Source: Herpetosiphon giganteus (GTDB taxonomy: Bacteria > Chloroflexota > Chloroflexia > Chloroflexales > Herpetosiphonaceae). From it: a stretch of 64,000 bases of DNA. The DNA lies in NCBI RefSeq assembly GCF_016907925.1, contig NZ_JAFBCZ010000002.1, forward strand, positions 1-64,000. Reading direction: 5' to 3'. Under the pieces are notes generated by a model. That model searched no databases. It had not been told where the DNA came from and saw only the letters and a list, made by a program, of their open reading frames with translations. Below, in pieces: positions 3,969 to 51,566 of this stretch; position 1 is the stretch's first letter; every line of letters starts with the position of its first letter. The translations under genes were made by a program, and so were the position numbers.

Positions 3969-4865
3969 ATGCAACTTGATCTGCTCGAACGCTTGCAGCA
4001 ATGGCGTACTCCAGTGCTGGATCAGCTGTTTTTATGGGTAACTAACATTGGCGGCGAGGATTTTTACCTGTTGTTGGGTCCAATTATCTTTTGGTGTGTT
4101 GGCATCAACTTGGGTGTGCGCTTGCTGCTGATGTTGCTTGGTTCGTTTTATACCAATGCCTGGCTCAAAGATATATTTGATACGGTTCGCCCAGCCGCTG
4201 CCTATCCAGAGCGCTTCCCGCTAAGCGAAGCTGCCAAGGAGACCGCGCTTAATCCCGATGGCTCGTGGAGTCCGTCGTTTCCCAGTGGCCATGCGCAACA
4301 TACCTTGGTTTTTTGGTCGTTTGTTGGGTTGTGGCTGCGCCAGCGTTGGGTTTGGGCATTGGCAGGCTTGATGATTGGGTTGGTGAGCTTTTCACGGCTC
4401 TATCTGGGCGTGCATTGGCCAATTGATGTGCTTGGTGGTTGGTTTTTTGGCAGCTTGATTGTGGTTGCCAGTATTTACATTACGCCGCTGATTAGCGCTT
4501 TGCCAACCAAAACCCAAGCACGCTTGGCCTTGGGCTTGGCTGCGATTTGTTTATTGGGCTTATTCTTCGATTCTGGCGCTGATCGGGTCAAAATGCTGGG
4601 CTTTTTGGCTGGCTCGTTGGGTACATTGGGTTTGCAACAGCGCTATGCGCAATTTCAAGTGCGCAGCGTTTGGTGGCGGCAATTAATTAAAATTATTATT
4701 GGTATTAGTGTCGTGTTTGTGCTGCGGGCTGTGCTCAAAAGCATGTTGCCCGAAACGCTCTTGGCTGATGGATTGCGCTATTTGATTATTGGGATGTGGA
4801 CAACGTTTGGCGCGCCATTGGTCTTTCGGCTGACGTTGGCTAAACCTGTGGTAACGCCAGCCTAA
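3969..4865 (+). CDS. PAP2-family membrane phosphatase (phosphatidic acid or undecaprenyl-pyrophosphate phosphatase-like)
   Basis: A multi-spanning membrane protein of 298 residues from the ATG at 3969, chosen because GAGG lies 6 bases upstream; an in-frame ATG at 3951 lacks an RBS. The three-part PAP2 signature is complete: KDIFDTVRP, then SFPSGHAQ, then SRLYLGVHWPIDVLGG. The two His and the Arg residues form the phosphate-transfer site in this family. The substrate is a lipid phosphate, either phosphatidate or undecaprenyl diphosphate; the sequence does not decide. The C-terminal half adds about four more hydrophobic helices. The last 26 bp overlap the 3' end of the histidine kinase gene on the other strand. 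Confidence 0.88.
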   Translation: MQLDLLERLQQWRTPVLDQLFLWVTNIGGEDFYLLLGPIIFWCVGINLGVRLLLMLLGSFYTNAWLKDIFDTVRPAAAYPERFPLSEAAKETALNPDGSWSPSFPSGHAQHTLVFWSFVGLWLRQRWVWALAGLMIGLVSFSRLYLGVHWPIDVLGGWFFGSLIVVASIYITPLISALPTKTQARLALGLAAICLLGLFFDSGADRVKMLGFLAGSLGTLGLQQRYAQFQVRSVWWRQLIKIIIGISVVFVLRAVLKSMLPETLLADGLRYLIIGMWTTFGAPLVFRLTLAKPVVTPA

Positions 4866-6135
4866 TCTGTGCGCCGCCTTCTGGCCGATTCATAAAGTGC
4901 GCAGTGCCACCGTGGAGCATCGCGACATGGCGAATCAAGGGCATGCCCAAGCCACTGCCGCCGATTTTGGTTGTCCAACCCAAGGCCTGATTTAACGATT
5001 GGGCCTGATTCAGATGTTCGAGTAAATCGGCGGAAAAGCCCTTGCCTGTGTCATAAATATCGATTGTGGTTTGTTGCGCAGATTGCTCGACCTGAATAAA
5101 AATTTGGCCTTCGTCGGGGTAGCGCAACAAGGCCTCAATAGCATTTTGTAAAATTGTATGCACTGCTAAGCGTAAAAAAAGTGCATCGCCAATCACAATG
5201 CACTCAGCAGGGCAATCGATCTGAATTGTTGAATTGAGGCCATGGCGTTGCATTTCTGCTTGGCTTTCGGCCTGTTCGCTTTGCAGCAAGGGCAAAAGTT
5301 GAATCGGCATGCGTTGTTGGGGCAGCAATTGGCCTTCGCGGGTCAGCACCAGCAATTCAGTTGTTAGTTGACGAATCGAATCGGCAGTGCTTTGCAGCAC
5401 GCTCACCAATTCTTGCGGCTGAATCGCCGATTGCTCAGGCGTTGGGCGTTCGCTAAGCTGTTGATTGAGCATTGGCAGCAACACATCAAGACTATTGCTA
5501 TATGAACGTAATTCGTGCTGAAAAAAGCGCATAAATTGGCGAACTTGTTGCTCTTTGCTGAGTTGAGCTTCGGTTTTTACCCGCGCTTTGGCAAATTGCA
5601 CAGCTTGCGAGGTTACGCCCCAAAGCATCAAAAACTCCAAAATATTAAATGCAATAATTGCTGGCGTAAACACCTGCCATCCACCAGTATGCAGCGAGGC
5701 CACAATCGTCACGGAGAGCGGATAAAAGGCGATTGGCCACCAGCGTCGGCTAGCTAACATTGCCATCAAAATCGGCAACATGGTCAAAACGACCACTGCC
5801 GCATCTGAAGGAATTGTAGCCAGCACATAAAAACAGGCCAAGGTTAGCACACTCACCACAATCCAGCGCGGCCACATTGCGCTCGGCTGGCGAAACATCC
5901 ACCACGCCAAGCCACCCAAACAGAGCGCCACCCCAAAATCGAGCAAGATAACGCCTGTTGGTGCGCCGCCATAATCCAGATTGAACGCGCCCATAATGCC
6001 AATTAGCCCAGTAAACAAGGCCAAAATTGCAGTTAAGGTCGCAAATGGATCAGCGCCATGGACAATATCCTGCCACCACTGCTTAATCCAGCGCCATCCA
6101 CGGGCTTTCCAGCTGAGGGGTGCTTGCTCAGGCAT
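4840..6135 (-). CDS. Orphan membrane sensor histidine kinase
   Basis: A 431-residue kinase. The N-terminal half has about six hydrophobic segments and no recognisable periplasmic sensor domain. It is followed by a His box (FQHELRS, about residue 207), a four-helix dimerisation segment, an N box (HTILQNAIEAL), G1 (DTGKGF) and G2 (GGSGLGMPLIRH) of a HATPase domain. It should autophosphorylate on His and pass phosphate to a response regulator, but none is encoded nearby. The ATG at 6135 is preferred over the TTG at 6153. It converges on, and overlaps, the PAP2 gene. Confidence 0.85.
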   Translation of the reverse strand: MPEQAPLSWKARGWRWIKQWWQDIVHGADPFATLTAILALFTGLIGIMGAFNLDYGGAPTGVILLDFGVALCLGGLAWWMFRQPSAMWPRWIVVSVLTLACFYVLATIPSDAAVVVLTMLPILMAMLASRRWWPIAFYPLSVTIVASLHTGGWQVFTPAIIAFNILEFLMLWGVTSQAVQFAKARVKTEAQLSKEQQVRQFMRFFQHELRSYSNSLDVLLPMLNQQLSERPTPEQSAIQPQELVSVLQSTADSIRQLTTELLVLTREGQLLPQQRMPIQLLPLLQSEQAESQAEMQRHGLNSTIQIDCPAECIVIGDALFLRLAVHTILQNAIEALLRYPDEGQIFIQVEQSAQQTTIDIYDTGKGFSADLLEHLNQAQSLNQALGWTTKIGGSGLGMPLIRHVAMLHGGTAHFMNRPEGGAQIRLALPQV

Positions 6136-6590
6136 AGCTTTGCTTTCTTGCAATCAGGGTGAGTGCGGCTAAAGGTTTTATTAATGATTAACTCTAACAC
6201 TTTTTAATAGTTTATTAAGCCTATCTTGGGCTAGTTCCTTTTGAAGCGCGTAGAAAGCTTGTTGCGACTACTCAATACCTAGCACTTAGTCCTATCCAAA
6301 ATAAGTCCTTATGGCTACTTGTGACAGCTAAAGAGATCATGATTTAATAGCTCTATCCATAGTAACTGTTATCAATTGTTGCCGTCATTTTGTTCACCAA
6401 TTGTCTTTTGGCTTATTAAAATCATTGAAATAAGGAGCTAGATTATCCCAAATACGCAGTATCGCCGCAGGATTCTTCACGCTCTACCGCCGTGTTCTGC
6501 AATGCATCCTTGCACTACCTTTTGTTATGCAGTACAGCTGTTTCTAGTTATTGAATCCGTTAGTCTTAATGACTAAGACGGGAGCAGTAT
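6136..6590. other. AT-rich intergenic region upstream of sigma-like gene
   Basis: About 450 bp, clearly more AT-rich than the flanks, with no supported gene. Nested inverted repeats TTAGTC/GACTAA (6560-6565/6571-6576) and GTCTTA/TAAGAC (6563-6568/6574-6579) lie just before the RBS of the downstream gene and could be an operator. Confidence 0.5.
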
Positions 6591-7433
6591 ATGAGTATGT
6601 ACGCTGATGCTATTGGAGATATAGTAAGCCAATTGAATCGACACCATGGTTGGCAATTAGATGGGGCAGGATGTCAGCTTCTTTGCCAGCGCAGTTGTGA
6701 AATTTTGCAACGCAACCCCGCCTCAAATCCAGCCAAATATCCTGATATTGTTATCAATGTCTATCACGATTATGCCACCGTTGCCGCTGCTTGCGATCCA
6801 CAACATCCCCATCACGAGTTAATTTGGGTTTCAATTATGGATGAAATCCTCAGCTGGTATCGCTGCAAACGCTTCTCGTTGGGCAATGGCTCACAATTAT
6901 GCGAGCATTCGCCCGATTTGGTAGCCTACGAGAATGTGAAGCGTTCGTTGCCACAGTTTCGTTTTGAAGCCCGCTTACGCAGCTATATCCACACCATTGC
7001 CGAGCGGGCAATTATTCACTGGTGGCGGGCCAAAAACGCCAAAAAACTGGGTGGATCTGGTGGCCGCAGAATTCACGAAAGTCCCAATGTGTATACGCCA
7101 AAACCGCAAGATCAAACCTACTACCTGAGCCAAACCAATGGCCGAGACTGTCAACGTGAGTTAGGCGATACAATTGCCTCACCAGACCTTTTGCCGCATG
7201 AACACGTGGAGCGCTGTGAACTTCAACGGCATATGGCGGCTGAAGTTCACGCGATGGTCGATGATCCGCTGTATCTGATTGCCCAGCAGTATTGGTATGC
7301 CTTGTTGTGCGAGGATAACAACATTACTGCCTTGGCCAAACAGCTTGGGTTGCAAGCCAACGAGCTGTACAATTTGCGTGATCGGCTGCGGCGACGTTGT
7401 AAACCATTTTTGGTGCAGTGGTTTTTAGCCTAA
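6591..7433 (+). CDS. Divergent sigma-70/ECF-like regulator
   Basis: A 280-residue soluble protein. A central stretch (RFEARLRSYIHTIAERAI, then HWWRAKNAK, about residues 124-150) resembles sigma region 2.3-2.4. The C terminus (NNITALAKQLGLQANELYN, then RDRLRRRCK) resembles a region-4 helix-turn-helix that contacts the -35. No anti-sigma gene is next to it. GGGAG lies 6 bases before the ATG. Its stop overlaps the convergent NuiA-family gene by 4 bp. The assignment rests on helix pattern, not exact motifs; a different DNA-binding role is possible. The long AT-rich upstream region suggests regulated expression. Confidence 0.6.
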   Translation: MSMYADAIGDIVSQLNRHHGWQLDGAGCQLLCQRSCEILQRNPASNPAKYPDIVINVYHDYATVAAACDPQHPHHELIWVSIMDEILSWYRCKRFSLGNGSQLCEHSPDLVAYENVKRSLPQFRFEARLRSYIHTIAERAIIHWWRAKNAKKLGGSGGRRIHESPNVYTPKPQDQTYYLSQTNGRDCQRELGDTIASPDLLPHEHVERCELQRHMAAEVHAMVDDPLYLIAQQYWYALLCEDNNITALAKQLGLQANELYNLRDRLRRRCKPFLVQWFLA

Positions 7434-7807
7434 GTTTCAACCAACTGAGTTTTTAGGCCAACCACGTTGCCAGCACTATCCTTGCCCAAAATATAGGCAT
7501 CGATATTAATTTCGCCCACCCGATAGACCTGAATGTCGCTTAATTCGGCCTTGAGCACTTCGACCAACTTCTGAAATTGGCTCACTGTAGCTTTTTCAGC
7601 CTCACCATCCCCGTCTTGGGGAGTAGTAGCATTTTTAAAGAATTGCTCAAGGCTAATGGTTTGGATCGGCTGACCATTAGCGAGTGCTTCGGGGCTGAAT
7701 GGGGTCGCCGCATCCCATGTATAGGGTGTGAAGGGCGCATCGGTTTCGCTCATCATCTGCAAGCCATCGGCTGCGGCAGTAATGTTCTCTAGACTTGTTT
7801 CGGCCAC
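7430..7807 (-). CDS. nuiA: NuiA-family nuclease inhibitor
   Basis: A 125-residue soluble protein resembling cyanobacterial NuiA, which binds and blocks the secreted sugar-non-specific nuclease NucA. The family signature is clear: FFKNATTPQD, then FQKLVEVLKAEL, then QVYRVGEINIDAYILG and the C-terminal GLKTQLVET. The GTG at 7807 is chosen because AAGGAG lies 5 bases upstream; the longer frame to 7870 adds a basic, unconserved tail and would run through a hairpin. No NucA-type nuclease is encoded in the window, so the target is elsewhere in the genome. Its likely role is protecting the cell from its own nuclease before export (inference). Confidence 0.85.
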   Translation of the reverse strand: MAETSLENITAAADGLQMMSETDAPFTPYTWDAATPFSPEALANGQPIQTISLEQFFKNATTPQDGDGEAEKATVSQFQKLVEVLKAELSDIQVYRVGEINIDAYILGKDSAGNVVGLKTQLVET

Positions 7808-7823
7808 AGGAACTCCTTGTTTA

Positions 7824-7852
7824 CGTCGAAGAGGGCTGATCCGCCCTCGACG
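7824..7852. other. Inverted repeat just upstream of nuiA
   Basis: gagggc (7831-7836) pairs with gccctc (7843-7848), extended by cgtc (7824-7827) with gacg (7849-7852). It lies 17 bases before the GTG start of nuiA and could be an operator or an mRNA hairpin. Confidence 0.4.
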
Positions 7853-7933
7853 CGGACGACGAAAGGGCATAGGCTGCTCCAGCGATAATTGGCTGAATGC
7901 GGCTAGTATAGGGCATTTTTCGCGCCAACAAAA

Positions 7934-7959
7934 GCCCCCATCAAGCTCATGATGGGGGC
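7934..7959 (-). terminator. Terminator of clpB
   Basis: A perfect 10-bp stem, gcccccatca (7934-7943) with tgatgggggc (7950-7959), followed by a T-run when read on the minus strand. Confidence 0.85.
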
Positions 7960-7981
7960 GAAGTCGAATTGATTAATTGAT

Positions 7982-10561
7982 TTAGTTGAAAATCAGTTTG
8001 CCTGCATCAACATCGACGCTGACGGTTGTGCCAGCTGGGAAGCGACCTTTGAGCACTTCCAAGGCGAGTGGGTTGAGCAGCTCGCTTTGAACAGCCCGTT
8101 TGAGTGGCCGTGCCCCAAAGACGGGATCATAGCCAACTTGGGCGAGATGTTGGCGGGCTGCTTCACTCAAGACCAATTTGAGTTTGCGTTCGCTCAAACG
8201 CTTGCTCAGCCGATCAACCTGAATATCAACAATATGCTTGATTTCAGCCTGGGTCAATGGTTTGAAGATAATCAAATCATCAATCCGGTTGAGGAATTCT
8301 GGGCGTAGCTCGTCGCGCAGTTCTTCCATCACTGCTTCGCGCATCGCTTCTTCATCATCAACCAAACTTTGAATGCGGCTACTGCCAATGTTCGAGGTCA
8401 TAATCACCACCGAATTGGTGAAATCGACCAAGCGGCCTTGACCATCGGTTAAGCGACCATCATCAAGCAATTGCAACAGCGTGTTGAACACATCGGGATG
8501 GGCTTTTTCAATTTCATCGAACAGCACCACGCTATATGGGCGACGGCGCACGGCTTCGGTCAATTGGCCGCCTTCTTCATAGCCAACATAGCCTGGAGGT
8601 GCACCAATCAGGCGGGCCACGGCGTGACGTTCCATATATTCCGACATGTCGATCCGCACCATGGCTGCTTCGTCATCGAACAAAAATTCAGCCAAGGCCC
8701 GTGCCAACTCGGTTTTGCCAACCCCAGTTGGCCCAAGAAAGAGGAACGAACCAAGTGGCCGATTGGGATCTTGCAAGCCTGCCCGCGAACGGCGCACTGC
8801 ATCGGAAACTGCTTTGACCGCTTCGTGCTGGCCGATAATGCGGGCATGCAGCCGTTCTTCCATCTTGACTAGCTTTTGTAGCTCGCCTTCCAAAAGCTTG
8901 GAAACCGGAATACCCGTCCATTTGGCGACAACTTGAGCAATATCTTCTTCGGATACTTCTTCGTTGAGCAGCATGCCATGTTCTTGCATATCGCGAACTT
9001 TGGCTTCTGCTTCGCCCAATTGTTGCTCTAAGGTATTGAGCGTGCCATATTGCAATTCGGCGGCGCGATTGTAATCGTATTGGCGTTGGGCTTGCTCAAT
9101 TTGGACCTTAGTTTGGTCAATTTTTTCTTTTAATTGAGCGATGGCGTTAATTGCGCCGCGCTCGCTCGAAAGCTTGGTATCCAGCACTGCTTGTTGTTCG
9201 CGCAAGTTGGCCAAATCGCGTTCGAGCCGCTCCAAGCGCTCCTTGGAAGCAGGATCTTTTTCGCGTTTCAAAGCTTCGCGTTCAATTTCCCATTGCATGC
9301 GTTTGCGCTTGATCTCGTCAAGTTCAACCGGATCGCTGGTAATTTCCATGCGCAATTTAGCAGCCGCTTCGTCGATCAAGTCAATTGCTTTGTCGGGCAA
9401 GAAGCGATCGGCAATATAGCGGTTGGATAAGGTTGCGGCGGCCACAATCGCTGCATCGGTAATCCGCACGTTGTGATGCGTTTCGTAGCGTTCTTTCAAG
9501 CCACGCAAAATCGAGATTGTATCTTCGACGGTTGGTTCGCCGACCAACACTGGCTGGAAGCGGCGCTCCAAGGCTGGATCTTTTTCAATATATTTGCGAT
9601 ATTCATCAAGCGTCGTCGCGCCGATGGTGTGCAATTCGCCGCGGGCCAAGGCTGGCTTGAGCATATTCGAGGCATCCATTGAGCCTTCGGCTGCGCCTGC
9701 ACCAACCACGGTATGCAACTCATCGATAAACAAAATCACGCGGCCTTCGGCGTTGGTAACTTCGCTGAGCACTGCTTTGAGCCGTTCTTCAAACTCACCG
9801 CGAAATTTTGCGCCAGCAACCAACGCACCCAAATCGAGCGCGATCAAGCGTTTGTTGCGCAATGCTTCGGGCACATCGCCGCGCACAATCCGTGCAGCAA
9901 GGCCTTCGACGATGGCGGTTTTGCCAACGCCTGGCTCGCCAATGAGCACTGGATTGTTTTTGGTACGCCGCGAAAGCACCTGAATCGTGCGCCGAATTTC
10001 TTCATCGCGTCCGATTACTGGGTCAAGCTTGCCGCGCTGAGCCAAGGTTGTTAAGTCGCGACCATATTTTTCGAGCGCCTGATATTTGCCTTCAGGGTTT
10101 TGGTCGGTAACTCGTTGATTCCCGCGAATGGCAGTTAAGGTTTTGAGAATTGCATCTTTGGTAATGCCAAACGACGTGAGCAAACGCTGAGCTGGGCCTT
10201 TGGCGCGCTCGCCAGCCAGCCCAAGCAACAGGTGTTCGGTCGAAACATACTCATCGCCCATGCCTTTGGCTTCATTTTCGGCTGTCTGCGAAACTTGATC
10301 TAAGCGTTGGCCGATGCCAGGCTGCATTTGCGTGCCACTAACGCGGGGCAAACGCCGAATTTCGTCGTTGAGCGCCGCAACCAAGGCTTGCGGATCGCGA
10401 TCCATTTTTGTGATAATTTGCGGAACCACGCCATCAGCTTGTTCGAGCAAGGCCACGAGCACATGTTCTGGTGTGATTTCGCTTTGGCCGTTGCGAGATG
10501 CGATGCTTTGGGCATCAAAGATAGCCGCACGTGATTTTTCGGTGTAAATATTCAAATTCAT
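7982..10561 (-). CDS. clpB: ClpB protein disaggregase
   Basis: An 859-residue AAA+ chaperone that, with DnaK, pulls proteins out of aggregates after stress. The parts appear in order: N domain ([18 protein letters not shown]), first AAA+ module with Walker [10 protein letters not shown] (about 207) and Walker B FIDELHTV, a coiled-coil middle domain (about 400-530) that marks ClpB rather than ClpC or ClpA, and a second AAA+ module with [10 protein letters not shown] (about 609) and LFDEIEKAH. Length is normal. GGGAGG precedes the ATG. No CIRCE operator was seen upstream. It is divergent from the tsaE operon. Confidence 0.97.
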
Positions 10562-10623
10562 GGTTGCGAAACCTCCCTATTCAGTTGTAACTACGCTAAG
10601 CATAGCAGAGCGATGTTAAAAAT

Positions 10624-10652
10624 ATAGTAGGCCACTATTAGAAGATTGTCTG
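10624..10652 (-). promoter_or_regulatory. Candidate clpB promoter
   Basis: Read on the minus strand: CAGACA (10652-10647), 17-bp spacer, TACTAT (10629-10624). The match is moderate. Confidence 0.35.
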
Positions 10653-10798
10653 AACATAATCGTTGTTTGGTTTCAGCAAAATATCAGCATATGGTTGGTA
10701 TTTTTGCGCTATGCTCAGCTGGGATAAATTGGCTTGAGCAGTGGCATGCAACAGCGCCAGCATGGCAATTGGCATGATGCCCGTTTTCAGCCAGCATA

Positions 10799-10807
10799 TG
10801 CTACAAT
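10799..10807 (+). promoter_or_regulatory. Extended -10 promoter directly before tsaE (leaderless transcript?)
   Basis: TG-c-TACAAT ends at 10807, 7 bases before the ATG at 10815, and no RBS is present. Transcription starting 7-8 bases downstream would begin at the start codon. Confidence 0.55.
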
Positions 10808-10814
10808 TGAGCCT

Positions 10815-11330
10815 ATGAAAGCACGTATTCCTGCCATTTTAGAGCCTGATAGCATCGATGTGGTGAGCCATGGGCCAGCCCACACGGTGCGGATTGGTCA
10901 GCAAATCGGCGCAGCCTTAAATGCTGGCGATTTAGTGCTGTTGTTTGGGACGTTTGGCGTGGGCAAAACCCACTTGACCAAAGGCATTGCCAGCGCGTTT
11001 GGTATCCCTGAAGCAGACGTTACCAGCCCAACTTTTGTTTTAGTCAATAACTATACTGCCGATAAAACCCATGGCCGCACTCGGATTCACCATATCGATC
11101 TGTATCGACTTGAGGGCAATGCCAAGGATTTCGATTCGATTGGGTTGGAAGAATTATGGGACGATAGCGCCATTTGTGTGATCGAATGGGCTGAACGCGT
11201 GGCTGATTCGTTGCCCAGCGAATATTTGGAAATTCGGATCGATCACTTGGCCGAAACCAAACGCATGATGCGGCTCAAACCGCATGGCGAGCGCTATAAG
11301 CAATTAATTCAGCGTTTGCGTGGTAAATAG
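10815..11330 (+). CDS. tsaE: tRNA threonylcarbamoyladenosine biosynthesis ATPase TsaE
   Basis: A 171-residue P-loop protein of the TsaB-TsaD-TsaE complex that makes t6A37 on ANN-decoding tRNAs. It shows LLFGTFGVGKTHLTKGIA (Walker A; usual families read GdLGaGKTt), then SPTFVLVNNY, HIDLYRLEG and VIEWAERV, all typical of TsaE. An in-frame extension to 10734 exists, but the ATG at 10815 matches family length and follows an extended -10 element at leaderless spacing. tsaB comes next, 38 bp downstream. tsaD is not in the window. Confidence 0.93.
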   Translation: MKARIPAILEPDSIDVVSHGPAHTVRIGQQIGAALNAGDLVLLFGTFGVGKTHLTKGIASAFGIPEADVTSPTFVLVNNYTADKTHGRTRIHHIDLYRLEGNAKDFDSIGLEELWDDSAICVIEWAERVADSLPSEYLEIRIDHLAETKRMMRLKPHGERYKQLIQRLRGK

Positions 11331-37488: not shown

Positions 37489-40400
37489 ATGCTCCAATCC
37501 CCTGATCAAGGGCGAACTTTGCAACCGCAGGTTCGTCGTCGTGCATTGGTGCTTAATTTGGCACTCTTGTTGGCATTATTTGTTGTTCCAATTCAACCAA
37601 CAGCAGCACGCATTGCAGCACCACAGCTTCCTGAAGCCCGTTCTGCCAGCGCGCCAACTGCGGTTTGTGTCGTAACCAACACCAGCGACGCAGCCTCGCC
37701 GCCAGTTGGTTCGCTCCGGGCAGCATTGGCCAACGCAACCTGTTCGCCAATTGTATTCGACCCAAGTTTGACGGGCCAAACGATCACATTAACTGCTGAG
37801 TTGAGCGTTGCGCGGGTGGTTGTGATCGATGGAGCCGCCGCGCCTGGCCTGAAAATCGATGGCAACAATAGCGTGCGCCTCTTCAATGTCACGGCCACAA
37901 CTGCCAATCTTGCAATCTACAACTTGACCTTGCAACGTGGTAAAGCCCCAAATACGGGCATTGCCAACGGTGGTGCTGTGCTTAACCAAGGTGGTACGGT
38001 TGTTATCAGCAATACCGCTGTGCTTTCGAACACTGCTGGCACCAGCGGCAACGGCGGTGCATTGCGCAACCAACGCACCAGCGGCGTTGCTGGGATTTTG
38101 CGGGTCTACAATAGCGTGATTATGGGCAATACTGCGCCCGCCAATGGTGGCGCTTTCAGCACCAGCGGCAGTATCACCACAATCGTCAATAGCGCTGTCT
38201 TGAGCAATACCGTCACCAGCACATCTGGCGGCATCACCAGCGGCTCAGGCTTGGGCGCTGGGATTCACCACGTTAATATTCAAAATCCTCCTGCCAACTT
38301 GACCACGGCAATCACCAACACCACGATTGCCTACAACCGTGGCAAGGCGGGCGCAGCGATTTACAACGATAACAATGGCATCATCGATGTTTACTACAGC
38401 ACAATTGCCTACAATGCAGCCTCGAACAGTACTGGCTCGATTGTTGGTGGGGTTGTTAACGGGTTTACAACTAGCGGCCAGCCTGGTTTACGCGTTAGCT
38501 TGTATAACACGATTGTGGCCAACAATACCCAACGTGCTGCCAACACAGCCTTGACCAGCGCCGATGTTGGGGTTGGCACAGGCCAAACCATCACCTCAAA
38601 TGGCTATAACTTGATTGAAACTGTGCCCAGCGGCGCAGTATTTAGTGGCTCAACCGCCAGCAATATCACTGGCCAAGACCCAGCGCTTGGTGAGGTTCAG
38701 AACAACGGCGGCGGCACACCAACCGCAGCTGTGTTGCAAAATAGCCCAGCCTATAACGCTGGCGATCCTGCGCCAATTGGCTTGCCAGCAACCGACCAAC
38801 GCGGGCCTGGCTTTGTGCGGGTGCGCGAAGGCCGCTTGGATATTGGTGCATTTGAAGCGAGCAATAGCGTCCAAACTTCGCCAATTTTGGTTAGCACCAA
38901 TTTGGATACCAATGATGGAGCATGTACGACGTTCAATTGTTCGTTGCGCGAAGCAATTACGTTGGCGAATAGCACCCCGCAAACCGATACGATTCGCTTT
39001 AATTTGCTTGGCAGCGGCGTGCGCACTATTTCGCCAACTGCCGCCTTGCCAACGATCAGCGCTCCGGTGATTCTCGATGGCTTGAGCCAAGCTGGCGCTG
39101 CATGCAACGCTCCGTTGATCGAATTAAACGGCTCGTTGGCTGGCGCAAACGTCAATGGCCTCGAGGTAACTGGTGGCAATAGCCTTATTCGCGGCTTGGT
39201 GATCAATCGTTTTACTGGCAATGGCGTGCGTTTGGCAACTCTTGGCCGCAACACGCTTGAATGTAATTTCATCGGCACCGATCCTTCGGGCACAGTCGAT
39301 GCTGGCAATGGCCTGTCGGGTGTACGCGTTGAATCTGCAAACACCTTAATTGGTGGTAGCAGCGGCTCGAATGCTCGCAACTTAATTTCTGGCAACGATG
39401 GCGATGGGATTACGCTGGTGGCTGGGGCCAACGCCACAACCATCCAAAATAATTACATCGGCACCAGCCTGAACAGCAACGCAGCACTTGGCAATAGCAA
39501 GAGCGGCGTGCGCATCGGCAGCGATAACAATCAAGTTGGCGGTACGTTTGGCACGTTGGGCAACATTATTTCTGGTAACGTCGAACATGGCGTGCTGGTG
39601 AATGTTAGCTCAGCGCCATTGGGCAACCGCATTCAAGGCAACTTTATTGGCACCAACATTGGCGCAACCCTCGATATTGGCAATAGCCAACGCGGGGTCT
39701 TTATCGATCGCAGCGCCAATACCTTGGTTGGCGGCACAACCGCTGAACGCAACGTCATTTCTGGCAACAACAGCGATGGCGTGGCAATTATCGAGGCTGG
39801 CGCAACCAACAATAAAATTTCTGGTAACTACATCGGCACTAACAATGGCGGTGGCTCGGCCTTGGGCAATAGCTCGGCTGGGGTTTATATCTTCAATGTT
39901 GGCGGCAATACGATTGGTGGCACAACCACCGCTGAACGCAACTTGATCTCAGCCAATAGCAACGGGATTGTGATTGGCGGCGGCTCGGCGATTGGCAATA
40001 TCATCAAGGGCAACTACATTGGCACGACGCTCAATGGCAATGCAGCGCTTGGCAATGTGAGCGATGGGATCAAACTCGACGGCGCGCGCAACACCCAAAT
40101 TGGTGGCTTGACCATCGGCGAGCGCAACGTCATTTCCGGCAACGGCAATAACGGGATCAACATCTTTACTGCAAGTTCGGCAGCGAATGTGATTCAAGGC
40201 AATTACATTGGCACCAATGCCTTTGTTGCACCAGCTAGCCCAACTGGGGTCGCCAACCAATTCAACGGCGTGCGGGTGGCTGCTGGCACAACCACAACTA
40301 TCGGTGGCTCGGCCCAAGGCGCTGGCAACGTGATTGCCTTCAACGCCAAAAATGGCGTGCTGATTACCCAAGGCGCGGCAGTTGCCACGACCCAACGGAT

Positions 40401-42882
40401 TCAGCGCAACAGCATTTTTAGCAACAATCGCTTGGGCATCGACCTTGGACCCGATAATAATGCCAACGGCGATGGCGTAACTGCCAACGATGCCAACGAT
40501 AGCGATACTGGGCCAAACAATTTGCTCAACTATCCAGTTGTTGAATCGACCAGCTCTGGTGGAGGCTTGACTCAAATTGTTGGCTCGTATATTGGCGCAC
40601 CAAATGCTGCCTTGACCCTCGATTTCTATGGCCAAGGTGCGTGCGATCCAAGCAACTTTGGCGAAGGTCAAACCTACATTGGCTCATACGCCATCAACAC
40701 CGGCGCAACTGGCGCAATTTCCTACACCGCCAATTTGACCACGACCGTGGCTTTGGGCCAACGCGTGACTGCAACTGCGGTTGATGCCAATGGCAACACC
40801 TCGGAATTCTCGCGCTGTTCGTCGGTTGGCAACTTGCCAAGCGTCAGCGTCAACGATGTAACGGTGGTCGAAGGCAATAGCGGCACGACCAACCTGAACT
40901 TTACCCTGAGCTTATCGGCGGTCAGTGCCAGCCCCGTGGTTGTGAGCTATGTAACCGCTGATGATACAGCGATTGCGCCAGCAGACTACACCGCTGCCAG
41001 CAGCACCGCCACGATTCCAGCTAATAGCTTGAGCGTGCCAGTCACAATTGAAGTTCATGGCGATACCCAATTTGAACTCAACGAACGCTTCTTTATCAAT
41101 TTGTTGAGCGCCACCAACGCCGCAATTGGCGATGGCCAAGGCATTGGCTCAATTACCAACGACGATAGCGCGCCAACGATTAGCGTGAATGCTGCTAGCG
41201 CAAATGAAGGCAGTGGCACACCTGGCCAAATCACTGTGCCAGTCACGCTTTCGAATGCCAGCTATCTGCCAATTAGCGTTGAATTTGTGACCACCGATGG
41301 CACGGCGAGCGCTCCCAGCGATTACACCACCATTACCGGCACGCTCAATTTTGCCCCAGGCGAAACCAGCAAAACCATCGATATTGCTACGGTTGGCGAT
41401 TTGATCGACGAGCCAGACGAAACGATCAACGTGGCGCTGAGCAACGCAGTCAACACCACGATTAGCAACGATGAAGCGATTGCCACGATTCTCGACGATG
41501 ATGCAACCCCAGTCATCACGGTGGCAAATGGCGAAGTGAGCGAAGGCAACAGCGGCAGCGTAACCGTAACCCTGAATGTGAGCCTGAGCAACCCAAGCAG
41601 CAGCCTGATCACGGTTGATTATGCAACCGTCGCTGGTTCGGCAACCGCCAATGTTGATTTCACCAGCAGCAATGGCTCGCTGAGCTTTGCCCCAGGCGAA
41701 ACCAGCAAAACCATCGATGTCCAAGTTTTGGGCGATCTGCTCGATGAAACTGACGAATCGTTTAGCGTAGAATTGAGCAACCCAAGCAACGCCACAGCTG
41801 GCAGTGCTGGCACAGTCGTGATTCTTGATGATGATGCAGCGCCAATGCTCGATCTTACTGGCTTTCCAGTGCTCGAAGGCAATACGGGCACGAAGCCTTT
41901 GACCGTGACTGCAACCCTTTCAGCAGTGAGCGGCCAAGCTGTGACCGTGCAGTACGCCACCTTCGACAACACTGCAACCGCTGGCAGCGACTACACCGCG
42001 ATCAGCGGAACCTTGACGATTCCCGCAGGCCAGTTGAGCCAAAACATTTTTGTGAATGTTAATGGCGATCTGATCGACGAAAGCAACGAAACCTTTACCA
42101 TTACCGTCAGCAATCCGCAAAATGCCAACTTGTTGAACTCCAATGCAATTGGCACGATTATTGACGACGATGGTGCGCCAACGATCAACGCCAACACCAT
42201 CAGCGTCACCGAAGGCGATGCCAACAGCGTCAATGCCACCTTCACCGTCAGCTTATCCAACCCGAGTGCGACCGCTGTGAGCGTCAACTACTCAACTTTG
42301 GCGGGCACGGCTTTGAGCGGCACTGATTTTACGCCTGCCGCTGGCACGCTCAATTTTGCTCCAGGCGAACTGACCAAAACCGTAACCGTCGTGGTGCTTG
42401 GCGATCTCTTGGATGAGGCCGATGAAACCTTTACCCTCGTACTGAGCAGCGCAACGGGCGGCGCAACCCTCGGCACTGTTGGCACAGCCACAATTGTTGA
42501 TAACGATCCAACGCCAAGTGTGGCTTTGAGCGGTCTCAACAGTGTGATTGAAGGCAGTGGTATCACCACAACCTTGCAATTCACCGTGACCCTTTCGACA
42601 GCCAGCGGTCGCGCAAGCAGTGTGCAAGTAGCCACGACTGCGGGCACTGCCAGCGCAGGCAGCGACTTCGTTGGCCAGAATTTGACCCTCAACTTTGCCG
42701 CTGGCGAAACCCAAAAAGTGGTCAGCATCAGCATTGTTGGCGACCGTGTTAAAGAGCCAAACGAAACCTTTAGCGTTGGCTTGAGCAATCCAAGCAACCT
42801 CACGCTTGGCACTGCCAGCATCGAAGTCACGATTATCGACGATGATGAGTGGCTGGTCTATTTGCCATACGTGGTCAAATAG
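37489..42882 (+). CDS. Giant secreted beta-helix and Calx-beta protein with CSLREA-type domain
   Basis: 1797 residues. Parts: signal segment (LNLALLLALFVVPIQPTAA); an N-terminal beta-helix domain (GSLRAALANATC; NVISGNN-like repeats); a CSLREAITLANS motif at about 484 typical of the CSLREA domain; a long set of right-handed beta-helix repeats with NLISGNDGDGI, NYIGTN and NVISGN units (about 530-1010); then six Calx-beta domains (about 1120-1780; VTVVEGNSGT, DYTAASS, GDLIDEPDET units). The tail ends EWLVYLPYVVK. Such proteins are surface or secreted structures in Bacteroidota, Cyanobacteria and Chloroflexota; role is probably adhesion or matrix. GAGG lies 6 bases before the ATG. A terminator follows. 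Confidence 0.85.
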   Translation: MLQSPDQGRTLQPQVRRRALVLNLALLLALFVVPIQPTAARIAAPQLPEARSASAPTAVCVVTNTSDAASPPVGSLRAALANATCSPIVFDPSLTGQTITLTAELSVARVVVIDGAAAPGLKIDGNNSVRLFNVTATTANLAIYNLTLQRGKAPNTGIANGGAVLNQGGTVVISNTAVLSNTAGTSGNGGALRNQRTSGVAGILRVYNSVIMGNTAPANGGAFSTSGSITTIVNSAVLSNTVTSTSGGITSGSGLGAGIHHVNIQNPPANLTTAITNTTIAYNRGKAGAAIYNDNNGIIDVYYSTIAYNAASNSTGSIVGGVVNGFTTSGQPGLRVSLYNTIVANNTQRAANTALTSADVGVGTGQTITSNGYNLIETVPSGAVFSGSTASNITGQDPALGEVQNNGGGTPTAAVLQNSPAYNAGDPAPIGLPATDQRGPGFVRVREGRLDIGAFEASNSVQTSPILVSTNLDTNDGACTTFNCSLREAITLANSTPQTDTIRFNLLGSGVRTISPTAALPTISAPVILDGLSQAGAACNAPLIELNGSLAGANVNGLEVTGGNSLIRGLVINRFTGNGVRLATLGRNTLECNFIGTDPSGTVDAGNGLSGVRVESANTLIGGSSGSNARNLISGNDGDGITLVAGANATTIQNNYIGTSLNSNAALGNSKSGVRIGSDNNQVGGTFGTLGNIISGNVEHGVLVNVSSAPLGNRIQGNFIGTNIGATLDIGNSQRGVFIDRSANTLVGGTTAERNVISGNNSDGVAIIEAGATNNKISGNYIGTNNGGGSALGNSSAGVYIFNVGGNTIGGTTTAERNLISANSNGIVIGGGSAIGNIIKGNYIGTTLNGNAALGNVSDGIKLDGARNTQIGGLTIGERNVISGNGNNGINIFTASSAANVIQGNYIGTNAFVAPASPTGVANQFNGVRVAAGTTTTIGGSAQGAGNVIAFNAKNGVLITQGAAVATTQRIQRNSIFSNNRLGIDLGPDNNANGDGVTANDANDSDTGPNNLLNYPVVESTSSGGGLTQIVGSYIGAPNAALTLDFYGQGACDPSNFGEGQTYIGSYAINTGATGAISYTANLTTTVALGQRVTATAVDANGNTSEFSRCSSVGNLPSVSVNDVTVVEGNSGTTNLNFTLSLSAVSASPVVVSYVTADDTAIAPADYTAASSTATIPANSLSVPVTIEVHGDTQFELNERFFINLLSATNAAIGDGQGIGSITNDDSAPTISVNAASANEGSGTPGQITVPVTLSNASYLPISVEFVTTDGTASAPSDYTTITGTLNFAPGETSKTIDIATVGDLIDEPDETINVALSNAVNTTISNDEAIATILDDDATPVITVANGEVSEGNSGSVTVTLNVSLSNPSSSLITVDYATVAGSATANVDFTSSNGSLSFAPGETSKTIDVQVLGDLLDETDESFSVELSNPSNATAGSAGTVVILDDDAAPMLDLTGFPVLEGNTGTKPLTVTATLSAVSGQAVTVQYATFDNTATAGSDYTAISGTLTIPAGQLSQNIFVNVNGDLIDESNETFTITVSNPQNANLLNSNAIGTIIDDDGAPTINANTISVTEGDANSVNATFTVSLSNPSATAVSVNYSTLAGTALSGTDFTPAAGTLNFAPGELTKTVTVVVLGDLLDEADETFTLVLSSATGGATLGTVGTATIVDNDPTPSVALSGLNSVIEGSGITTTLQFTVTLSTASGRASSVQVATTAGTASAGSDFVGQNLTLNFAAGETQKVVSISIVGDRVKEPNETFSVGLSNPSNLTLGTASIEVTIIDDDEWLVYLPYVVK

Positions 42883-50120: not shown

Positions 50121-51566
50121 TTAGTAGTTGTTCAAGGCAATTGGCAAGAACACTTGTTGGGTGTAGAGGAAGTCAATCTTGGCTCCACACAAGGCATAGT
50201 CGCTGCTTGCTGATGAAGCATCCCACACCAAGGCTAAGCCTTTATCGGTGTTCTCAATTGGGTAGTTGATGCTGACTGAGTTTTGCGTGCCTGTACCCAT
50301 CACTGGGACGCTGGTGATTTGGGTAAATTCGCCGCTGCCAACAAAGCTATATAAGTTGAGGGTTGGGCCAGCAGCAGCATTTTTGTAGTAGAAGGTCACG
50401 CGGGCGGCCTTCGCACCTTCTGGCGCGGTGACGTTGGTCGTCAAATCTTCGATTTCGTTGCTGACGTTGACACAGCCGTTGGCATCGCTGCTGTAGTTCA
50501 CGTTTGATCGCCGTGGCACGAAGGTGCTGCCGGTGATGAAGCGGCTATCTTGGGTTGGCTCGGTGGTAGGGTTGCTATATTGGAACCGAACTCCACACAA
50601 GCGCAGTTGATTGCTCAAAACCCCAGCAAAATCAGCAACCACGCTCAACGATTCGTTGCTTTCATTGACGGTGTAATTCAAGTTTTGATCGGCATTGACC
50701 AATGCTGTATCGGAAACTGGTCTGGTCAAGGTCGCAAGCGTATTGGTTACGCCTTGGCCATTTGAGGCGATCAGTTTCACCGTCAGGTCAGCGCTATTAA
50801 CATCACGGAAGTAGGTACGCACTGCTGTTAGTTGGCTGCCTTGGGGCAAGTCGACATCAGCATTTAGCGTTCGACCATTGATTTTAACAAAGGTACAGCC
50901 AGCCCCAGCATAACCATGTTCGGTGGCTGAGTTGGTGTTGACCAAGGTGCTACCAACGATAAACAGATAATCGGTTGCTGGGCGTGGCTCTGCTGGCGCG
51001 GTGTAAGCAATCCGTACGCCACACAATTGCATCGAGGCATTGGTCACGCGGGGAAACCATTCCAAGAACAAGCCGCGATTTTGCATGTTGACCACATACG
51101 GAGCATATGGCGCGCGAATTGGCGCATAGGTGTTGGTCAAACCAATCGAGCTTGAAATTTCCACCGTGATCAATTCACGAGGCATAATCATATCGCTGTC
51201 GTTGAGCGTCAACTCAGCCTTGGTTTGGCTGGTGCTCGTGTCGTTGAGATAATAATCCAAGCCTAAGATGGTTGCGCCGTTGGGCACTGCAACCGGAGCC
51301 GTAAATTCGCCACTGCTGGTGGCATAAATACAACCAGTTGGTTGATTATTGGTGTTGCGGGTTGTTTCAAAGGCCGTGGTTGAGTCGCGGGTTTGAAACG
51401 AGCTGCCTGCAATCCAAAGATACTGGGTATCGTTGGGAGTTGCTGCGCTTTGAACTGGGGCTTGAGCTGGGTTCGTTTGGGCACGGGCAACAAAAACAGG
51501 CCCAACCAGGAACAACAGTGCCAATAGAACAATGGCGATACGGAATGAAGCGCGGATTCGCGACAT
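50121..51566 (-). CDS. Secreted protein with three copies of an unrecognised domain
   Basis: 481 residues. Signal peptide (FRIAIVLLALLFLVGPVFV). Three related domains of about 135-145 residues start at about 49, 199 and 341, each opening with (I/F)xGSxF, holding a GC-containing loop, a (V/A)xLPxGA-type turn and a central acidic strand, and closing with LCGV(R/K)(I/F)xY or LCGAKIDF. Each holds two Cys (one early, one in LCG), possibly a disulfide. The tail ends VFLPIALNNY. I recognise no catalytic motif. AAAGGA lies 7 bases before the ATG. Confidence 0.8.
   Translation of the reverse strand: MSRIRASFRIAIVLLALLFLVGPVFVARAQTNPAQAPVQSAATPNDTQYLWIAGSSFQTRDSTTAFETTRNTNNQPTGCIYATSSGEFTAPVAVPNGATILGLDYYLNDTSTSQTKAELTLNDSDMIMPRELITVEISSSIGLTNTYAPIRAPYAPYVVNMQNRGLFLEWFPRVTNASMQLCGVRIAYTAPAEPRPATDYLFIVGSTLVNTNSATEHGYAGAGCTFVKINGRTLNADVDLPQGSQLTAVRTYFRDVNSADLTVKLIASNGQGVTNTLATLTRPVSDTALVNADQNLNYTVNESNESLSVVADFAGVLSNQLRLCGVRFQYSNPTTEPTQDSRFITGSTFVPRRSNVNYSSDANGCVNVSNEIEDLTTNVTAPEGAKAARVTFYYKNAAAGPTLNLYSFVGSGEFTQITSVPVMGTGTQNSVSINYPIENTDKGLALVWDASSASSDYALCGAKIDFLYTQQVFLPIALNNY

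Follow-up and report, generated by a model that had tools for sequence, protein, structure and literature searches.

The first 64,000 nucleotides of contig NZ_JAFBCZ010000002.1 of Herpetosiphon giganteus (GCF_016907925.1), the whole stretch of DNA that was analysed and is here called the window, encode two exported proteins, P0001 and P0002, which fall in different BLAST clusters and end in VYLPYVVK and VFLPIALNNY, respectively. Why do two such different proteins finish on a similar tail? An initial annotation of this DNA had described both endings, which are present as it said, and had proposed that they form a sorting or anchoring signal of the lineage. We suggest that the tail, or YLP-box, is an ultrashort C-terminal tag of Chloroflexota for surface sorting or retention after export, without a membrane helix, and we give this reading a probability of about 0.78. 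The tail itself is shared, conserved, C-terminal, linked to export and present on many protein families; it lies outside the fold where modelled and has been found in one phylum so far. The proposal is supported by the enrichment on exported proteins, the phylum range, the position outside the fold in the modelled protein, the absence from the lipoproteins sampled and a co-occurring candidate enzyme, and from these we infer sorting itself.

A C-terminal box on exported proteins

P0001 ends in IIDDDEWLVYLPYVVK and P0002 in FLYTQQVFLPIALNNY, each followed by the stop, with the tails encoded by codons 42856-42879 and 50153-50124 (Table 1). Both proteins start with a signal-peptide-like segment (gene calling and signal-peptide calls were made with simple scripts of our own). 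Of the 239 stop-to-stop frames in the window with 80 amino acids (aa) or more, only these two had [VIL][FYW]LP in the last 15 residues. The stop comes four (P0001) and six (P0002) residues past the proline, with no helix, and the P0002 tail is a variant without a basic residue.

We sampled 40 systematic stretches of 20 kb (0.8 Mb) from the same genome, the grid, which together with the window gave 623 called genes. A tail was counted as [VILFMWT][YFW][LIVM]P plus 3-6 more residues at the C terminus. In the grid without the window, it ended 9 of the 91 exported non-lipoproteins –about one tenth– vs. 3 of 488 other proteins (Fisher p 6e-6), so the enrichment among exported proteins that the initial annotation had set as its test is there. 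Standard profile scans miss most of these copies because the tag is so short. Including the window, the counts were 11 of 104 and 3 of 519; on the same basis, the tail was absent from all 26 lipoprotein-like proteins and from all 33 proteins that have a single later membrane segment, and it was found on 1 of 118 membrane proteins and on 2 of the 342 remaining ones. The three tailed non-exported cases were a protein with its N terminus lost at the stretch end, the end of a histidine kinase, and a called membrane protein. Within exported proteins, the core of four residues was counted 15 times in 42,738 positions; at the tail positions of the 130 exported proteins (window included), 0.18 cases were expected by chance and 11 were observed.

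To describe the box, we used 43 tailed proteins of the window's genome, paralogues included, which form 28 BLAST sequence clusters. They came largely from 40 hit-centred stretches picked by hand from 75 DNA-pattern hits, mostly for true stops, so that the residue counts lean to the consensus. Eleven candidate tails had been discarded before this count; three of the 43 proteins have no visible N terminus, and one row (L117:84-422) may be a false open reading frame (ORF). The consensus was [QKRH]-[VI]-[YF]-L-P-(hydrophobic)-[VTA]-x-[KR]-stop. The position after the proline is hydrophobic or aromatic in 36 of the 43 tails, V, T or A stands five residues past the box start in 41 (V 18, T 15, A 8), and Q, K, R or H comes directly ahead of the box in 28. 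The stop lies four residues past the proline in 34 tails, five in 5 and six in 4, within the 3-6 allowed by the search. The core of aromatic-Leu-Pro described by the initial annotation held, whereas its plain hydrophobic stretch after the proline has to be amended: the tail usually ends with K or R four residues past the proline (36/43). In the 13 tails from the grid and the window, which are independent of the choice of loci, V/T/A was present in all 13 and K/R in 8 (by eye).

The tailed proteins include kelch, cadherin-like, SdrD_B, subtilase, thermolysin, Calx-beta and C25 families. A lipobox was present in none of the 40 proteins whose N terminus is visible, vs. 26 of the 130 exported proteins of the sample, and only one of the 43 had a further membrane-like segment. 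A Thr/Pro/Ser-rich linker stands just upstream of the tail in nine. At one locus (L082, 1627-10869), three adjacent genes on the same strand end in LPYTSK, belong to one BLAST cluster and look like a tandem family.

The tail had also been placed past the folded domains, and this was borne out in the one protein modelled. P0002 consists of three repeats of about 140 residues, and the first two stop at the point where the third runs into the tail. In the model of the third repeat with its tail (mean predicted local distance difference test, pLDDT, of 80; three-row alignment), the last strand stops at residue 134 of the 147; the tail beyond it has no secondary structure, with a pLDDT of about 50 at the final residues. 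The predicted fold resembles CBM6 or a related carbohydrate-binding fold (best Foldseek E 8.6e-6); a Pfam scan of P0002 gave no domain over the cut-off. In P0001, the tail comes after the end of a Calx-beta-like repeat (DDD), a point at which the earlier repeats continue into the next one. Choice-of-anchor domains of NCBI, choice_anch_Q included, precede various known anchors in other lineages, and choice_anch_Q ends six residues ahead of the tail in three further proteins (L101, L102 and L213).

Range of the tail and its catalogue entries

The P0001 tail is kept in five other genomes of the genus. For P0002, matches were found in eight of the nine genomes of the family. Full-length relatives within the genus end in VFLPIALNNY or close variants, and those farther out in VYMPLILK (G203, 44% identity) and AYIPLLLK (G053, 37% identity). 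The tail is kept in relatives at 35-44% identity. Proteins of G053 that share the P0002 repeat end in LFLPTVIK and in RILLPAMLK, the latter without the aromatic residue.

In a scan of 84,980 named species, each represented by one genome, the pattern VY[LF]P[LF]V[VIM]R-stop matched 42 stretches: 36 from Chloroflexota by their titles and 6 others. The 36 belong to Chloroflexales and Anaerolineae relatives, to unspecified Chloroflexi and, in one case, to a contig labelled Ktedonobacter. The match ended an ORF of at least 150 aa in 32 of them –two of the rest were cut by the stretch end and two were short frames– and in none of the six from outside Chloroflexota. Thus, the tail looks specific to this phylum. 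Within it, we scored 399 genomes with a stricter pattern, which left the controls nearly empty and took the place of a noisy first one. The tag was found in 79 genomes, including most of the window's order; families f5, f11, f14, f21 and f23 gave no match to the strict pattern in this set.

The contig titled Ktedonobacter racemifer (L213) carries a YLP-box over the cut-off of an NCBIfam model (16 vs. 15 bits). That class may really carry the tag, or the bin may be mislabelled.

The model is NF050076, sort_motif_YLP ('YLP-box putative sorting motif'), which stands in NCBIfam release 20.0 together with NF053834, ultrashort_CTERM, and describes the same C-terminal box that is found here on exported proteins. 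The signal had been called uncharacterised, which agrees with the literature as far as it was covered: no study of the YLP-box tag was among the matches listed, most subscription journals being outside the coverage, and we found no enzyme or paper attached to NF050076. However, it is already catalogued as a putative sorting motif.

Scanned with NF050076, four places of the window's genome scored over the cut-off, one of them only together with its neighbours, and L088 scored 13.3, under the cut-off. Nothing was reported for the two window tails or for the other tails of this genome that were scanned, in part since HMMER filters drop such short matches. When the last 24 residues were scanned against NCBIfam, nine tails had no match, and the tenth sequence –the kinase end, used as a control– gave only histidine-kinase-type matches. 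A six-frame search with NF050076 also matched 12 of 14 well-known control genomes (E up to 10), in two of them over the cut-off, and the model alone is therefore weak evidence.

The YLP-box resembles PEP-CTERM, GlyGly-CTERM and MYXO-CTERM in being spread through a lineage on exported proteins of many kinds. A study on MYXO-CTERM (PMC11980579) describes that tag and similar ones as made of three parts (signature, transmembrane helix and basic end). The YLP tail differs from these, as it is only a box, in which the last residue is mostly basic, and has neither the tripartite structure nor the helix. The same source reports that the MYXO-CTERM enzyme was indicated by genome profiling, a precedent for the use of phylogenetic profiling to this end.

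Peptidase_C25 as a candidate reader

A co-occurring processing enzyme was also to be looked for according to the initial annotation, and we found a candidate, Peptidase_C25, which is the family of PorU, the sortase of type IX secretion, and was noticed since one tailed protein belongs to it. Counting C25 as full when its best E was about 1e-20 or below, we found it in 60 of the 79 tagged and 16 of the 320 untagged genomes (tail and C25, 60; tail only, 19; C25 only, 16; neither, 304). Outside the window's order, the same four counts were 23, 16, 12 and 299 (odds ratio 36), and 13, 3, 22 and 312 when at least two tails were required. In 201 genomes scored with the first, looser pattern, full C25 was present in all 14 whose tail excess was 10 or more and in 15 of the 16 with 6 or more.

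We also compared 38 genomes picked by hand from the 201, by match count and the look of the listed matches: 18 tail-rich, 17 tail-poor, and three low-tail members of the order that belong to neither group (G069, G125 and G133). C25 was present in 17 of the tail-rich genomes, with a weak match in G198, and in none of the tail-poor ones; the tail-rich group includes two genomes with no real excess (G095, 11 matches vs. 14 reversed; G177, 3 vs. 2). Within the order, five of the six genomes of the small-genome genus g6 lack both tail and C25; in the sixth, C25 is present and the tail is not.

The ten C25s examined each present a signal-peptide-like start and a PorU-like region. The residues aligned with the PorU His and Cys, which we take to be the catalytic pair, are invariant in all ten, and the GH...W and TC motifs align. 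Searching the PDB sequences with one C25, PorU (6za2) was the sole match up to E 1 (E 3.6e-7). Judged by their scores on the NCBIfam PorU model, four C25s are relatives of PorU, not PorU. In the C25 of G156, part of the C-terminal region consists of masked bases.

To our knowledge, Chloroflexota are not expected to have an outer membrane. There is a likeness to type IX secretion of Bacteroidota: exported cargo carries a C-terminal signal, and a cysteine peptidase of family C25 that aligns with PorU co-occurs with it. It differs in that the signal is an eight-residue box here and a beta-sandwich domain there, and in that the Chloroflexota C25s score far under the PorU cut-off. For Porphyromonas, one paper (PMC8545088) describes that the C-terminal domain of the cargo is cleaved and anionic lipopolysaccharide (A-LPS) attached by a transpeptidase reaction of PorU.

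We propose that a tailed protein would be exported by Sec, that its tag would be read outside the membrane after export, and that the protein would be retained on the cell surface. With less support, the reader could be a PorU-like C25 cysteine peptidase, which may cleave at or near the box and transfer the protein to an acceptor in the envelope; cleavage and anchoring are steps that we infer. By analogy with PorU in type IX secretion, Peptidase_C25 is a tentative candidate for this role, at somewhat less than even odds. The fuller proposal, a PorU-like system of Chloroflexota without the type IX translocon in which a C25 transpeptidase reads the YLP-box and joins the proteins to an envelope acceptor, is doubtful. 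In five of 11 loci (G147, G196, G101, G293 and L203), the C25 gene comes after a gene for a helix protein of the type LP-x-(T/A)-(G/A/N). The acceptor could therefore be a scaffold fixed to the wall by an ordinary sortase, on which C25 would hang the tagged proteins. If the C25 link is true, a tag so far only catalogued gains an enzyme that can be tested, and PorU-type sorting would extend to bacteria thought to lack an outer membrane.

Several results weigh against the tag or its candidate enzyme. The least constrained whole-genome DNA pattern gave a modest excess (68 matches vs. 49 for the reversed control); with V/T/A-like and K/R-like codons added, the counts were 26 vs. 2. With the looser first pattern, the C25 link did not reach significance outside the order (p 0.09), and the genomes that lack full C25 had 264 matches vs. 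228 reversed. The 19 tagged genomes without full C25 include three with three tails each (G031, G120 and G309), and 16 genomes have C25 and no tail of the strict pattern. The p-values disregard the relatedness of the genomes and hence overstate the association. Four C25s score 152-205 bits on the NCBIfam PorU model, with a cut-off of 420. Moreover, nine of the ten C25s have a YLP-like end themselves, which includes the aromatic residue in seven (the tenth C25 is masked in part), so C25s may be cargo; the single-tail genomes are partly circular for this reason, since some of them may score via their own C25.

These ends also fit a different explanation, in which the tail is not cleaved off and acts as a non-covalent docking strand for a surface receptor or a sheath component, and C25 is just another cargo. 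Nor is a fixed scissile residue evident: upstream of the box, the only enriched residues are Q/K/R/H at -1 and Y/H/W at -2. We consider a docking strand less likely: C25 tracks the tail outside the order far better than Calx-beta, the control family, for which the four counts were 11, 28, 37 and 274 (odds 2.9 vs. 36), and 8, 8, 40 and 294 with at least two tails (odds 7). In addition, subtilases, a control family that is also cargo, are present in 166 of 201 genomes and therefore cannot follow the tag.

That the tail has no sorting role, being a domain cap, a protection of the C terminus against exopeptidases or chance, is improbable. The tail is indeed short, and worn forms are seen on some C25 copies (VDVPLLQR and VTLPLVQR). 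Against this, it follows a complete domain in P0002 and Thr/Pro/Ser-rich linkers in nine of the 43 proteins, is common to different folds, was seen on no lipoprotein of the sample and was found at the end of no real ORF among the matches from outside the phylum.

Sortase was present in 17 of the 18 tail-rich and 15 of the 17 tail-poor chosen genomes (one of the 15 under the cut-off). G156, which is 97% complete and has 19 tail matches vs. 5 reversed, gave no match to the sortase family PF04203, an absence that is likely, not certain. As the partner of the tail, sortase was ruled out by this lack of co-occurrence. The YLP-box resembles the LPXTG signal in that exported proteins carry an LP core close to the C terminus, at times following a TP-rich linker. 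It differs in lacking a helix and a conserved T-G and in not tracking sortase. Even though some tails read LPxT(S/T/G)K (e.g. VYLPWTGK and LYLPYTSK) and G000 has six sortase matches, a degenerate LPxT signal processed by the genome's own sortases is very hard to maintain: no membrane helix follows the box, V and A replace T in many of the 43 boxes, G156 has many tails without a sortase match, and conventional IPATG, LPETG, LPQTA, LPITN and LPNTG proteins, with helix and basic end, adjoin sortase or C25 genes.

Features of the window and C25 loci

Table 1. Tail-bearing proteins of the window, with their parts
Feature	Coordinates	Strand	Remark
P0001, exported protein of 1797 aa: choice_anch_Q, CSLREA motif, six Calx-beta stretches, tail	37489..42882	+	
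choice_anch_Q domain (NF041518) of P0001, residues 397-457	38677..38859	+	
YLP-box tail VYLPYVVK and stop of P0001	42856..42882	+	VY[LM]PYVVK in five more genomes of the genus
P0002, exported protein of 481 aa: three repeats (the third a CBM6-like beta-sandwich in the model), tail	50121..51566	-	
YLP-box tail VFLPIALNNY of P0002	50124..50153	-	
Third repeat and tail of P0002, 147 residues	50124..50564	-	predicted structure

The CSLREA motif of P0001 spans residues 473-494. It is an N-terminal motif according to its NCBIfam name and comes here after choice_anch_Q, so P0001 is apparently a join of two proteins.

The C25 genes lie elsewhere in the genome, outside the window. One C25 frame of the window's genome starts 28 bases past a giant tail-bearing frame. 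At locus L314 (C1:274001-294000), positions 4445-11241 hold, on one strand, a YLP-tailed C25, a sortase gene and an exported protein of 818 aa that ends in IPATG, a helix and a basic end. In G101 and L203 (Chloroflexales bacterium ZM16-3), a tail-bearing gene stands upstream of the LPxT-like helix gene and C25. At L317, L318, L320, L322 and L203, a small exported protein with an LPGAG-, LPETG-, LPQTA-, LPITN- or LPNTG-like signal and a helix precedes C25, and DUF11 was found in three of the four helix proteins preceding C25 that were scanned.

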